Source: Ruegeria sp. TM1040 | GTDB lineage: Bacteria > Pseudomonadota > Alphaproteobacteria > Rhodobacterales > Rhodobacteraceae | Length of the DNA stretch: 64,000 nucleotides | Reading direction: 5' to 3' | Assembly (NCBI RefSeq): GCF_000014065.1 | Contig: NC_008044.1 | Coordinates: 953,501 to 1,017,500 of the forward strand | Shown: positions 4,589 through 8,215 of the stretch, piece after piece | How positions within the stretch are numbered: the first letter of the stretch is position 1 | How the letters are laid out: each line of letters opens with the position of its first letter | The notes under the pieces: model-generated | Told to the model about the DNA's origin: nothing | The model's input: only the letters and a program-made list of their open reading frames with translations | Database searches by the model: none | Made by a program: the position numbers and the translations under genes

Positions 4589-5395
4589 TCAGAGATCGAG
4601 ATCCACCCAGATTGGGACATGATCGGAGGGTTTCTCGCGCCCGCGAATATCCTTGTCGATCTGGCAGTCCCGCAGCAGGTCTGCCGCCTGCGGTGTAAGC
4701 AGGAAATGGTCGATGCGGATGCCATCGTCCCGGTTCCATGCACCCGCCTGGTAGTCCCAGAACGTATAGTGCCCCGGGCCGCGTGTGCGCGTACGAAACG
4801 CTTCGGTGAAGCCAAGGTTCACAATGCGCTGGAAGGCGGCGCGGCTCTCTGGGCGGTGCAGTGCATCCTCCCGCCAGGCTTCGGGGCGCTTGGCATCTTC
4901 GGCCTGCGGGATGATGTTGTAATCCCCCGCCATCAGCGCAGGCATCTCTTCTGCCATCAACTCCGCGGCGCGCGCCTTCAGGCGTTCCATCCAACCGAGT
5001 TTATAGGCGTATTTGCCACCCTCAACCGGCGTGCCGTCGTCGTTCAGTTCGACCGGGTTGCCATTGGGCAGGTAGAGACCACAGATCCGGAGCGCTTGTT
5101 TGCCCACCACCGTGGCTTCAATCCAGCGCGCCTGCTCGTCGCTCTCGTCCCCGGGCAGGCCCCGGCGCACATCCTCAAGCGGCAGTTTCGACAGGATCGC
5201 CACACCATTGAAGCTTTTCTGGCCGTGGGTTTCCACGTTGTAGCCGCGCTCTTCGAAGAGCTCGCGCGGGAACGCCTCATCCACCGATTTGATTTCCTGC
5301 AGCACTGCCACATCGGGCTGGGCCTCGTCGAGCCAGTCGGTCAGGGCGTTCACACGGGCCTTGATGCCGTTGATGTTGAAACTGGCGATCTTCAT
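4589..5395 (-). CDS. xthA: Exodeoxyribonuclease III
   Basis: A 268-residue AP endonuclease/3'-5' exonuclease of the ExoIII (EEP) family, acting in base excision repair in the cytoplasm. It begins with the family signature MKIASFNINGIKAR, has the metal-binding glutamate in VLQEIKS (E34), the catalytic GDYNI segment, and the C-terminal SDHVPIWVDL with the catalytic histidine. The annotated start follows GGAG eight bases upstream; the frame is open further but the extra residues do not resemble the family. It stands alone, convergent with the FAD monooxygenase across a family-A repeat. Confidence 0.96.
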   Translation of the reverse strand: MKIASFNINGIKARVNALTDWLDEAQPDVAVLQEIKSVDEAFPRELFEERGYNVETHGQKSFNGVAILSKLPLEDVRRGLPGDESDEQARWIEATVVGKQALRICGLYLPNGNPVELNDDGTPVEGGKYAYKLGWMERLKARAAELMAEEMPALMAGDYNIIPQAEDAKRPEAWREDALHRPESRAAFQRIVNLGFTEAFRTRTRGPGHYTFWDYQAGAWNRDDGIRIDHFLLTPQAADLLRDCQIDKDIRGREKPSDHVPIWVDLDL

Positions 5396-5848
5396 GGCGG
5401 TCTCCGTTCTGTGCGTCCACCTGTCTATCGCCGAATTCGCCCGCTCCCGCAAGCAACAGGGCATGTGTTGCACGTCATCCACGAGGCGCAGTGTTCCGAC
5501 CAGCGCCCTCCGGAAAAAAGGGTCCGAACGCTTGCGACTCGCTTGATGGATCAGGGTGCGGGTCGAGGCGAAGAATCAGCGTAGAGATCCGCCTCCAGAC
5601 CCCGGCGCCGCAAGTTTTCCTGTGCAACCAAGGGTATACATCATTTCGCTTTGCAATACTGCGCGTGTGAATAAACCTGTGCAAATATTGTGGGTAACTG
5701 AAATTGCATTTTTGAATCAATTAGATGTTAATAAAAATTAATGAAGAGTGAATGCGTTTTTATCCGCATGGTGTTGGAATTCTCTTGTTTTATTTTTTTC
5801 AGGTGGCAGGTTTTGGGTGTCTATTACTTTGAATGAAGGAGAAGTCCC
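5396..5848. other. Gene-free, AT-rich leader region
   Basis: About 450 bases without a supportable gene. The first half is ordinary G+C-rich sequence upstream of xthA. From about 5640 composition shifts sharply: by hand count 5701-5820 is about 31% G+C, far below the rest of the window. This part holds a candidate promoter (5704-5733) and a leader of about 100 bases for the SSTC peptide gene. A short open frame here (5556-5741) has no ribosome binding site and no plausible protein character. Confidence 0.6.
5704..5733 (+). promoter_or_regulatory. Candidate sigma-70 promoter for the SSTC-peptide operon
   Basis: TTGCAT (5704-5709) and TTAATA (5728-5733) resemble -35 and -10 elements with an 18-base spacer, in a very AT-rich stretch. 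Transcription would begin near 5740, leaving a leader of about 105 bases. Only the match to consensus supports this. Confidence 0.4.
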
Positions 5849-6064
5849 GTGAGCGCTCTGAAGAAAACCGTTGCCGATATTGCAGAAAATACAGGTGCAT
5901 TTGCCGGTGAAAGCGTGGGTCTCGTCAGCTCCACCTGTTTCGATCAAAAGCACGCAGGTGCTCAGATATCGCTTTACAGTTCCACATGTATTTCCGAAGC
6001 CGCCACCGATGCGCTGGTAGGGGATGCAACCCATATGGTCTCTTCGACCTGCATTGAGAGCTGA
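5849..6064 (+). CDS. Small peptide with three SSTC motifs
   Basis: A 71-residue protein starting at GTG, with a strong AAGGAG six to seven bases upstream. I do not recognise the family. Residues 1-24 (MSALKKTVADIAENTGAF...) look like an amphipathic leader. The rest contains three near-identical motifs, [LM][VY]SSTC[FI], with SSTC at residues 27-30, 44-47 and 65-68. The only three cysteines are in these motifs, and the last motif is almost at the C-terminus. The codons differ between copies (AGC TCC ACC TGT, AGT TCC ACA TGT, TCT TCG ACC TGC), so the motif seems kept by selection on protein rather than by recent duplication. The layout of leader plus repeated Cys/Ser/Thr core resembles a modified-peptide precursor, which is inference. 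A hairpin and a larger unknown gene follow. Confidence 0.75.
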   Translation: MSALKKTVADIAENTGAFAGESVGLVSSTCFDQKHAGAQISLYSSTCISEAATDALVGDATHMVSSTCIES

Positions 6065-6092
6065 GTTTTACTCCGTCTCGATTGAAATGCGT

Positions 6093-6123
6093 TTCGGTGA
6101 CCCAATTGTGTTGGGTTGCCGAA
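6093..6123 (+). promoter_or_regulatory. Intercistronic hairpin after the SSTC peptide
   Basis: An 11-bp stem interrupted by one symmetric TG/TG mismatch: TTCGG-tg-ACCCAA, loop TTGTG, TTGGGT-tg-CCGAA. It lies in the 88-base gap before the 354-residue gene and has no T run. It could protect the 3' end of a short peptide mRNA or attenuate transcription, so that the peptide is made in excess over the downstream protein. Confidence 0.55.
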
Positions 6124-6152
6124 GATCAATTTAATGATCTTGAGGTCTATTC

Positions 6153-7217
6153 ATGGGGCAGGTGCTTTCATTTCGCAATGCGCAAGAGAAAAAAATCCGT
6201 GAAGGAGCGCCTTTTCTTTTGAATTCATTTGGCTCTTTTCGCAAAGATCCACTGGATGTTTTGTGGATGAAGGAAAATGCAGAGCTGCTCAATGTGTTGG
6301 AAACCACAGGTTGCACTTTAAATGAGGGTGCATTGGAGCCGCTTTTGCCATTTTACGAAGGCAGCCTGCGGCACCTGAATTTCTTCCGCCAGTATTATCG
6401 TTTCATCCTGTCGATCTGCCTCGATCTGGAGGATCTCGGGGTGCCGGGTCAACGAGCCGAGATCATGTCCGATTGGATCATGCGTCAAGACGTGGCGGCG
6501 GCTGAACTTTCGGATTTGCAGCGGGCCGAGGCGCGACGCCTTTTGGCGCGGCGCGGGTTCGAATTGCCCGACGTCGAAGGGCTGGATGACCGGCTGCGGG
6601 CCTTTATGCAGCGCTCTGGCGGATTTGCGGTGCCCAATCGCAAGGCTGCCTATGAGTTGACCCATATTGTCTTTTACCTCACCGAATACGGTCGCGCGCC
6701 CCTCGAACTGGAAGAAACAGAGCGTCAAAGCCTGTTGTTTGCCGGGTTGATCGCCTTTCTCGATCAGGATGCGGATCTTCTAGCGGAAATCTGCATCGCG
6801 CTTCGTTTCTGCAATGAGGCCCCTCCACAGGAATGGAGCCGTTGGCTGGAGCAACACACAGGGAAATTTACCCTGCGCGCGGCGCCCGGACGAGTGGGGC
6901 AGGACGACTACCATCCCTACCTTATGTGCAATTGGTTTCAACTTCTGGTTGGACGGACTGGGTTTTCTGAGGCACAGTGCGAGGGTTCAGTTGTGATTGA
7001 AGGGCCGGGGCGTCCCGGCGCGTTACGAGGCATGTCGATGGCACTCTATACCCTGCTTGATCAGGCGCCCGGGACCTGGGCGCGGGTGCGCGCGCCTCTA
7101 TTGCAGTCGCTCAGTTCCGAAGAGGGGGAGGTTCTGCGCCGCGCTGAGGAAAGCACGCCCTTGTTCGAGCCCTTTTTCGAGACATTTTCGCGCTTTGGCC
7201 AGGTGAGTAGCGCATGA
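6153..7217 (+). CDS. Unrecognised 354-residue protein of the SSTC-peptide operon
   Basis: Not recognised. The 354 residues appear mainly alpha-helical and soluble, with no signal peptide or membrane segment. Visible features are an N-terminal Lys/Arg-rich stretch, an acidic middle part, and a conserved-looking segment near residues 250-290 rich in aromatic residues (YHPYLMCNWFQLL). I see no nucleotide-binding loop, radical-SAM CxxxCxxC, YcaO, LanM or protease motif, so a modifying role is only suggested by position. It starts at ATG with GAGG upstream, 88 bases after the SSTC peptide, and overlaps the following exporter by ATGA, which implies coupled translation. The first 150 bases share the lower G+C of the leader. 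Confidence 0.8.
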   Translation: MGQVLSFRNAQEKKIREGAPFLLNSFGSFRKDPLDVLWMKENAELLNVLETTGCTLNEGALEPLLPFYEGSLRHLNFFRQYYRFILSICLDLEDLGVPGQRAEIMSDWIMRQDVAAAELSDLQRAEARRLLARRGFELPDVEGLDDRLRAFMQRSGGFAVPNRKAAYELTHIVFYLTEYGRAPLELEETERQSLLFAGLIAFLDQDADLLAEICIALRFCNEAPPQEWSRWLEQHTGKFTLRAAPGRVGQDDYHPYLMCNWFQLLVGRTGFSEAQCEGSVVIEGPGRPGALRGMSMALYTLLDQAPGTWARVRAPLLQSLSSEEGEVLRRAEESTPLFEPFFETFSRFGQVSSA

Positions 7218-8215
7218 GCCCTGTCGCCACAGGGGTCCTGGCCGTCTTGCTCTATACGGGGCTGATCGCGGCGGCGGATGGGATCGTGAAACTGATGGCT
7301 GGGGGATTTGCTCCGGCGCAGCTTTTTGCTTTGTCGGGTCTTTTGGTGGCGGGGTTCTGTGTTATCGCGGGGCGGCTGCAGGGGCATCCTGACGGTCTGC
7401 GCACCAACTGCAAACGGGCGATGTTGCTGCGATCGGGCGCAACTGTGCTGTCCTGCACTTCCTTCTTTTTTGCGTTTCGCTATCTGGCATTGGCCGAGGT
7501 GTTTGTCTTTATCGCGCTGATGCCGCTGATGGCGGCGATGATGTCGGGGCTGATCCTCAAGGAGCGCATCCGCCCCGTTGTCTGGCTGGCGCTGAGCCTT
7601 GGGGTGATCGGCATTCTGGTGATGCGTCCCACGGTGCAGGTCGGAGGGGCTCTTGGGTCGGCGCTGGCGTTGAGCGGGGTTGGGTTTGGGACGCTGTCGA
7701 TCATCATGGCGCGCTACATCAGCCGATACGAGAGCAACGTGCTGGCGCAGGTCTTCTATCCGAACCTGACGCTTGGGCTGGTGATGCTCTGTGTGTTGCC
7801 ACTGGTCTGGCGACCGATGACGGCAGCTGATCTGGCGCTGGTCGGGGCCTATGCGGTCCTGCTGTTTGGGGCGCGTTGGCTGTTGGTATTAGCGCTGCGG
7901 CAGCTGCCGGCCTATACGGTGACACCGCTTCTCAATCTGCAATTTGTCTGGATGGCGCTGATCGGATTGATGTTCTTTGGTGAAGTGCCATTTGTATCAA
8001 CCTATTTGGGCATGGCGGTTGTTGCGGCATCGGGTCTCTTTTTGGTCTGGGATCAGGCTCAAACTCAAACACCCGTCCGCACTGAGGCGCCTATGGCGAC
8101 GATTGCCTCGGACAAATATCGTCGTGGGAACAGGGCGCCTGCACGCGGCGTTCGGCGCAATGACCGGCGCAGTGGCGCTTGGCGCACGCGGCGCCGGGTG
8201 CAGTCCGGCCGCTAA
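7214..8215 (+). CDS. EamA/DMT-family transporter with Arg-rich tail
   Basis: A 333-residue inner-membrane protein with about ten hydrophobic segments arranged as two EamA repeats (residues about 5-140 and 150-280), as in drug/metabolite exporters. Substrate unknown. It overlaps the preceding gene by four bases (ATGA), so it belongs to the SSTC-peptide operon and could export its product. The last 45-50 residues are odd: after the final membrane segment the protein continues into a hydrophilic stretch with many arginines (RRNDRRSGAWRTRRR) instead of ending as most family members do. This may be a read-through into former non-coding DNA or a real cytoplasmic tail. Confidence 0.85.
   Translation: MSPVATGVLAVLLYTGLIAAADGIVKLMAGGFAPAQLFALSGLLVAGFCVIAGRLQGHPDGLRTNCKRAMLLRSGATVLSCTSFFFAFRYLALAEVFVFIALMPLMAAMMSGLILKERIRPVVWLALSLGVIGILVMRPTVQVGGALGSALALSGVGFGTLSIIMARYISRYESNVLAQVFYPNLTLGLVMLCVLPLVWRPMTAADLALVGAYAVLLFGARWLLVLALRQLPAYTVTPLLNLQFVWMALIGLMFFGEVPFVSTYLGMAVVAASGLFLVWDQAQTQTPVRTEAPMATIASDKYRRGNRAPARGVRRNDRRSGAWRTRRRVQSGR

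Follow-up and report, generated by a model that had tools for sequence, protein, structure and literature searches.

Closest described systems

Several similar cores separated by spacers in one precursor peptide are a familiar layout in cyanobactins, dikaritins, and yeast alpha-factor. The precursor encoded by the locus studied here, a three-gene operon in a 64,000-nucleotide stretch of the Ruegeria sp. TM1040 genome (the window), has the same layout. To our knowledge, no cyanobactin, dikaritin, or alpha-factor system uses a DUF6902 protein, the product of the second gene of this operon. Our analysis indicates that the operon very probably encodes a multi-core precursor of the ribosomally synthesized and post-translationally modified peptide (RiPP) type, with DUF6902 as its modifying enzyme. 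Homology suggests epimerization of the cores as a fairly probable reaction, and the system is probably a new RiPP type of very simple make-up, a precursor plus one enzyme.

Lasso peptide epimerases provide further comparisons. Judging by its title, one study reports an epimerase of the DUF6895 family whose substrate is a lasso peptide (Shi et al., ACS Catal 2026). The DUF6902 protein resembles this family in Pfam homology and in having equivalents of its residues H171, D208, E212, and H254 in three aligned DUF6895 proteins. The two are separate Pfam families, however, and above cut-off DUF6902 was found here only in Rhodobacteraceae. Its predicted substrates carry several Ser/Thr-rich pentapeptide cores per precursor, unlike the lasso peptide of the DUF6895 epimerase, and no lasso protease or cyclase family was found among nine flanking genes of the window (1.6–14.4 kb; Pfam, E 1e-5). 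An excerpt of a second report (PMC10406935) describes MslH, the lasso peptide epimerase of MS-271, as a protein with a calcineurin-like fold that employs two His/Asp pairs and a Ca ion and no radical S-adenosylmethionine chemistry. Its mechanism is of the kind proposed for DUF6902. In contrast to the fold of MslH, the predicted DUF6902 model is mostly helical, and the window protein gave no Pfam match to a calcineurin-like fold up to E 10.

A repeated-core precursor beside a DUF6902 gene

An earlier note on this window, made from its letters alone, had described three open reading frames (ORFs), the last two joined by an ATGA overlap, and a 71-residue peptide whose only three cysteines lie in SSTC motifs. 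All of these features are present: the overlap joins the DUF6902 and EamA ORFs, and the cysteines sit in VSSTC, YSSTC, and VSSTC cores (Table 1) that show synonymous codon differences among them. The precursor matched no Pfam family, and its ORF is immediately preceded by the Shine-Dalgarno-like GAAGGAGAAG.

The earlier note's statement that no known RiPP enzyme is present has to be revised. The 354-residue protein matches DUF6902 (PF21843; E 9.6e-128, 426.4 bits, cut-off 27) and also DUF6895 (PF21836; E 2.7e-20, 73.4 bits, cut-off 23.8), the family with the title-reported lasso peptide epimerase. The DUF6895 match spans residues 72–236 of the window protein and profile positions 74–245 of 289.

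Profile searches detected DUF6902 in 108 of 394 Rhodobacteraceae genomes and the repeat peptide in 100, every one of them DUF6902-positive (both, 100; peptide only, 0; DUF6902 only, 8; neither, 286; the counts are taken as referring to the same 394 genomes, whose handles agree). These positives are not independent of the peptide profile, A2, given that its 30 rows were drawn from DUF6902-positive genomes (28 precursor ends picked by hand out of 53 of the 106, one shortened copy, and one stretch from locus L009). Among the eight genomes missed by the peptide profile, five hold a precursor whose core deviates from the profile (MMCCS, MMSCS, LSPSC, MPTSN, or AQSFS), one is cut at a contig end, and two have no precursor. 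Across the class, DUF6902 exceeded the cut-off in 3 of 289 genomes, all Rhodobacteraceae, and one match below the cut-off fell in another family. The system is found in a major, largely marine family (108/394 sampled genomes), mostly at one conserved chromosomal site.

At the level of individual loci, 113 of the 115 distinct ones that could be assessed have the precursor upstream of DUF6902, and in these an encoded precursor with leader and core stands beside a dedicated enzyme gene, as expected of a RiPP. The sample comprised 117 loci (107 fetched, the window, and nine named relatives), or 116 distinct ones after removal of L131 (genome G293), a duplicate of L003, and 115 after removal of L147, for which there is no upstream sequence. 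The duplicate is still counted in the alignment, core, codon, tree, box-enrichment, hairpin, and leader-pattern figures. The co-occurrence check across Rhodobacteraceae that the earlier note had proposed therefore bears out the precursor and helper (100/100 genomes, 113/115 loci) and leaves the third member, the EamA exporter, as an accessory. The note had regarded homologues that do not keep SSTC, or that occur without the two downstream genes, as evidence against its idea. Taken literally, that condition applies, since most homologues have other cores and some are without EamA, but the design of repeated cores beside DUF6902 persists.

Core sequences within and between species

Precursors from 113 distinct loci contain 2–20 cores (median 6). 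The repeat unit is mostly G-[DE]-[AG]-[VT]-[EGQ]-[MLA]-core, followed mostly by x-P; the spacer end before the core has the general form G-[DE]-x-[VT]-x-[MLA], and the precursor C-terminus is the exact end of a core in 60/113 loci. A leader-like start, M-x-A-[LQ]-x-[KR], is present in 88/114 (a loose pattern, with some starts uncertain or cut off). Seed cores were set by hand for 31 loci and for L076, and both L076 and L083 contain masked bases. A script placed the precursor starts, and a number of these are incorrect or truncated, including those of L044, L076, L078, L134, L135, L066, L085, L086, L119, and L120. In L049, L056, L062, and L075 the cores follow one another closely in tandem, for example MFSSCSVELFSSCS and MFTSGLVQMFTSGL, so a full spacer is not always present.

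There are 48 distinct modal cores, the commonest being FSSGS (22 loci), FTSWS (14), and FTSGS (7). Core position 3 is Ser, Thr, or Cys in 110/113 modal cores; the exceptions have Ala (YIAGL), Asn (FTNWC), or Pro (LSPSC, whose frame is uncertain). Mean identity at the five core positions is 83–100% within a precursor versus 28–79% between loci, although the former is inflated, as core instances were gathered by allowing up to two mismatches to a seed. Cores are 94% identical across 337 pairs of neighboring repeats that match at no more than 3/9 spacer residues, and different codons are used at 805 of 1590 identical core residues. Because these spacer-divergent pairs keep their cores yet differ in codons, core likeness does not arise merely from young repeats. 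Near-constancy of the core inside each precursor, together with variation from species to species, is the pattern that a species-specific signal or antagonist would be expected to show. The product may be such a signal or a peptide natural product of a new kind.

Core type tracks the enzyme tree but switches often, with 65 changes versus a shuffled mean of 84.8 (111 loci, 100 label shuffles). Trp at core position 4 changes 7 times versus 22.6 in the same shuffles. Two precursors combine two core types (L070, FCSWS and FSSLS; L097, FSTSC and FSSGS) and are possible intermediates of core switching.

The SSTC unit is the clade-specific core of one clade. It was seen only in the window, in loci L001–L008, and in the duplicate L131; the remaining precursors carry other cores. 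The closest named relatives found belong to Tritonibacter, Epibacterium, and Phaeobacter, and the DUF6902 proteins of L001–L008 are 66–83% identical to that of the window, as compared with 45% for L009 (Tateyamaria). SSTC is unchanged at all three places in 9/9 clade members, with Phe or Val preceding it at the first core, and all but two of the SSTC codon columns contain synonymous codons. The ratio of nonsynonymous to synonymous substitution rates (dN/dS) for the precursor is ~0.09–0.20 between the window and eight relatives (dN 0.17–0.34, dS 0.85–2.87, with dS often near saturation). These values uphold the earlier suggestion, made from codon differences between the motifs, of selection on the peptide.

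Conserved residues of DUF6902

In 113 DUF6902 rows (112 distinct), Y167, H171, F174, G180, D208, E212, Y253, and H254 are at least 90% conserved and are identical in the three DUF6895 proteins; the start Met, likewise conserved, was set aside. The two families thus have Y-x-x-x-H, D-x-x-x-E, and YH residues in common, with conservative exchanges at T170, Y175, and Y179. H171, D208, E212, and H254 are kept in 111/111 full-length rows (110 distinct) from precursor-bearing loci. Both precursor-less loci, L124 and L146, are also the sole loci without H171 and D208. In L124, H171 is replaced by Arg and D208 by Ser, while E212 and H254 are kept; L146, the most divergent DUF6902 member, has lost all four residues (H171 to Gln and D208 to Leu among them). 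This joint loss at two loci is a strong hint, though not proof, that H171 and D208 act on the precursor, and it singles them out as candidate functional residues.

Proposed reaction and alternative explanations

In the mechanism that we propose, the operon would give rise to a ribosomal peptide carrying several copies of a five-residue core. DUF6902 would bind the unfolded precursor via the leader or spacers and would invert the C-alpha configuration of one residue per core by acid/base or metal-assisted chemistry with H171, D208, E212, and H254. A protease encoded elsewhere would then free the cores, and EamA, where present, would export the product. DnaA may influence expression, and the hairpin between the first two genes would keep the precursor in excess over the enzyme. 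If this mechanism applies, the 48 natural core types with their cognate enzymes offer a ready-made collection for work on substrate recognition by a stand-alone peptide epimerase and for introducing D-residues into peptides.

Several points weigh against this interpretation, besides the inflated identity within precursors. The DUF6895 epimerase is known by title alone, and the chemistry of DUF6902 is deduced from sequence. The two families are distant: of the three DUF6895 proteins, two match DUF6902 below the cut-off and one not at all. The DUF6902 structure model, with helices plus two short strands, is middling (mean predicted local distance difference test, pLDDT, 66.7) and had no confident match among solved structures. 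No peptidase was found in the operon or among the nine flanking genes tested (1.6–14.4 kb), and EamA is missing in 26/112 loci.

The distance between the families leaves some room for a multi-core RiPP system in which DUF6902 has fold and peptide binding in common with DUF6895 but not the reaction, and carries out dehydration, cyclization, group transfer to Ser, Thr, or Cys, or specific proteolysis. Ser, Thr, and Cys are often modified in RiPPs, and the cores are rich in them, with one of the three at position 3 of 110/113 modal cores. We nevertheless consider this explanation rather unlikely, since DUF6902 and DUF6895 share their putative active-site residues. Furthermore, given the Ala, Asn, and Pro found at position 3 of YIAGL, FTNWC, and LSPSC (with its uncertain frame), side-chain chemistry at that position cannot be general.

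Alternatively, DUF6902 could be a peptide receptor or regulator of the Rap/PrgX type that reads a precursor-derived signal. Structure matches at the level observed are common for helical models, however, no DNA-binding family is among the Pfam matches of the 354-residue protein, and the invariant His/Asp/Glu/His set is suggestive of catalysis and recurs in a family with a reported enzyme; a receptor role is thus improbable. The main alternative of the earlier note, a metal-binding or redox mini-protein acting through its three Cys, retains very little plausibility: these Cys are invariant in the nine clade members, but most family cores hold no Cys, core number ranges from 2 to 20, and the peptide model (nine sequences) is without fold (pLDDT 41.3).

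Operon organization and chromosomal site

The features of the window operon are listed in Table 1.

Table 1. Features of the operon and its upstream region (window positions).
Feature	Position	Strand	Details
Precursor peptide gene	5849..6064	+	71-aa ORF; GTG start; leader-like MSALKK; three cores
Core 1, VSSTC	5924..5938	+	Residues 26-30 of the 71-residue precursor
Core 2, YSSTC	5975..5989	+	Residues 43-47 of the 71-residue precursor
Core 3, VSSTC	6038..6052	+	Residues 64-68 of the 71-residue precursor
DUF6902 protein, putative peptide epimerase	6153..7217	+	354 aa; Pfam PF21843 and PF21836; conserved H171, D208, E212, H254
EamA/DMT-family permease, putative exporter (accessory)	7214..8215	+	Pfam PF00892
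Strong hairpin between precursor and enzyme genes	6092..6124	+	From folding; possible partial terminator or RNA-processing site
A+T-rich region 5' of precursor, probable promoter region	5701..5820	.	30.8% G+C
Three DnaA-box-like 9-mers in tandem	5666..5697	+	From sequence: TGTGAATAA 5666-5674, TGTGCAAAT 5678-5686, TGTGGGTAA 5689-5697; gaps 3 and 2 bp; putative DnaA binding

Family-wide, the gene order is xthA, precursor, DUF6902, (EamA), erpA, and dgt. Searches with tblastn placed EamA after DUF6902 in 86/112 loci, and its absence from the other 26 marks it as accessory; EamA presence changes 15 times on the tree, and in 21 of the 26 EamA-less loci erpA lies within 110 nt downstream. Among the 116 distinct loci, some on cut contigs, tblastn found xthA in 108, erpA in 103, and dgt in 103. 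No RiPP-enzyme-like gene was found among the nine flanking genes of the window (Pfam, E 1e-5). A plasmid or mobile origin was not supported: the enzyme was unmatched in a plasmid collection, and erpA lies at most 1.5 kb from xthA in 19/27 DUF6902-negative genomes.

DnaA boxes and the intercistronic hairpin

The A+T-rich stretch upstream, put at about 31% G+C by the earlier note, measures 30.8%. About half of the precursor genes have exact DnaA boxes upstream. The exact box TTATCCACA is the E. coli consensus and, in an excerpt of PMC6699656, is applied to Rhodobacteraceae origins too. The 43,042 bp lying 5' of 108 precursor genes contain 90 exact boxes, and the other 1,034,203 bp of these loci contain 5, a ~430-fold enrichment; three of those five lie in loci with incorrect or truncated precursor starts. 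At least one exact box is present upstream in 57/108 loci. Two positions are favored, ~186 and ~110 nt ahead of the start codon, and a spacing of 76 bp is seen most often; in loci L041–L145, boxes lie about 80–215 nt 5' of the precursor genes and are often paired. In eight genomes, the genome-wide frequency of the exact 9-mer is close to that of its reversed control, indicating that the enrichment is local.

The window itself has no exact box, only three imperfect tandem ones. E. coli DnaA favors box pairs 2–3 bp apart, according to an excerpt of PMC11317965. Triple arrangements like that of the window were seen by eye upstream in clade members. A TTATNCACA-type box occurs only in the window, L001, and L008 among the nine clade members, and family-wide none is present within 300 nt in 45/109 loci.

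Two other explanations for the boxes were rejected. A chromosomal origin was considered because of the DnaA boxes and the A+T-rich stretch, but the sampled GC skew flips at 2.55–2.8 Mb (origin) and 1.2–1.37 Mb (terminus), whereas the locus lies at 0.96 Mb. The boxes also do not belong to the divergent xthA: of 30 DUF6902-negative genomes queried, 27 had an xthA match, and 0/27 of their xthA upstream regions contained a box. Given a local enrichment that belongs to neither an origin nor xthA, DnaA control of precursor expression is likely in many of these operons and possible in that of the window. If the link to DnaA is true, a probably exported peptide would be tied to the replication cycle. 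More speculative, and doubtful at present, is the idea of a chromosomally fixed Rhodobacteraceae signal in which a DnaA-timed multi-copy precursor, with a residue of each core turned to the D form by DUF6902 and cores that differ between species, would supply a species-specific, protease-resistant signal or antagonist tied to that cycle.

The hairpin that the earlier note had seen between the first two genes is real in the window, where the 88 intercistronic nt have a minimum free energy of -27.2 (z -4.0, 40 shuffles); z ranges from -1.6 to -4.8 in the nine clade members. It is weaker as a family trait, with z below -2 in 31/105 loci. At the same intercistronic place in the window and L001–L008, the hairpins are similar in strength and different in sequence, which suggests a kept structure. 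Such a hairpin may set the precursor:enzyme ratio.

DUF6895 loci in other families

DUF6895 exceeded the cut-off in 11 of 398 phylum genomes, 8 of them Rhodobacteraceae. Seven of these eight matches are at, or presumed at, DUF6902 places, and that in G242 is a separate, shorter frame; two more loci came from a further search of 194 genomes. At all five above-cut-off loci outside Rhodobacteraceae, a precursor-like small ORF, read by eye, lies upstream, and in four of the five the aromatic cores are repeated or paralogous. One locus has two paralogous ORFs ending in VGRWYVYVGTEE and VGPWFVLAGDQT, and three have paired cores within one ORF (GPWYIYKE and GPWFVLKE; DWTFVSPNYVYKG and DWTFISHNYVYKG; AGYVFVWDKYVYDVA and AGYIYTEDKYTFIVA); the fifth has a lone TWSFFFSD in its small upstream ORF. 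Given these precursor-like ORFs, the pairing of repeated cores with DUF6895/DUF6902 proteins may extend beyond Rhodobacteraceae. In locus L164 (positions 4771–5989), a gene for a papain-like cysteine peptidase (Pfam C70, C39-like) and another gene lie just 5' of two precursor-like ORFs and DUF6895, and this peptidase is a candidate for core release in that DUF6895 system.
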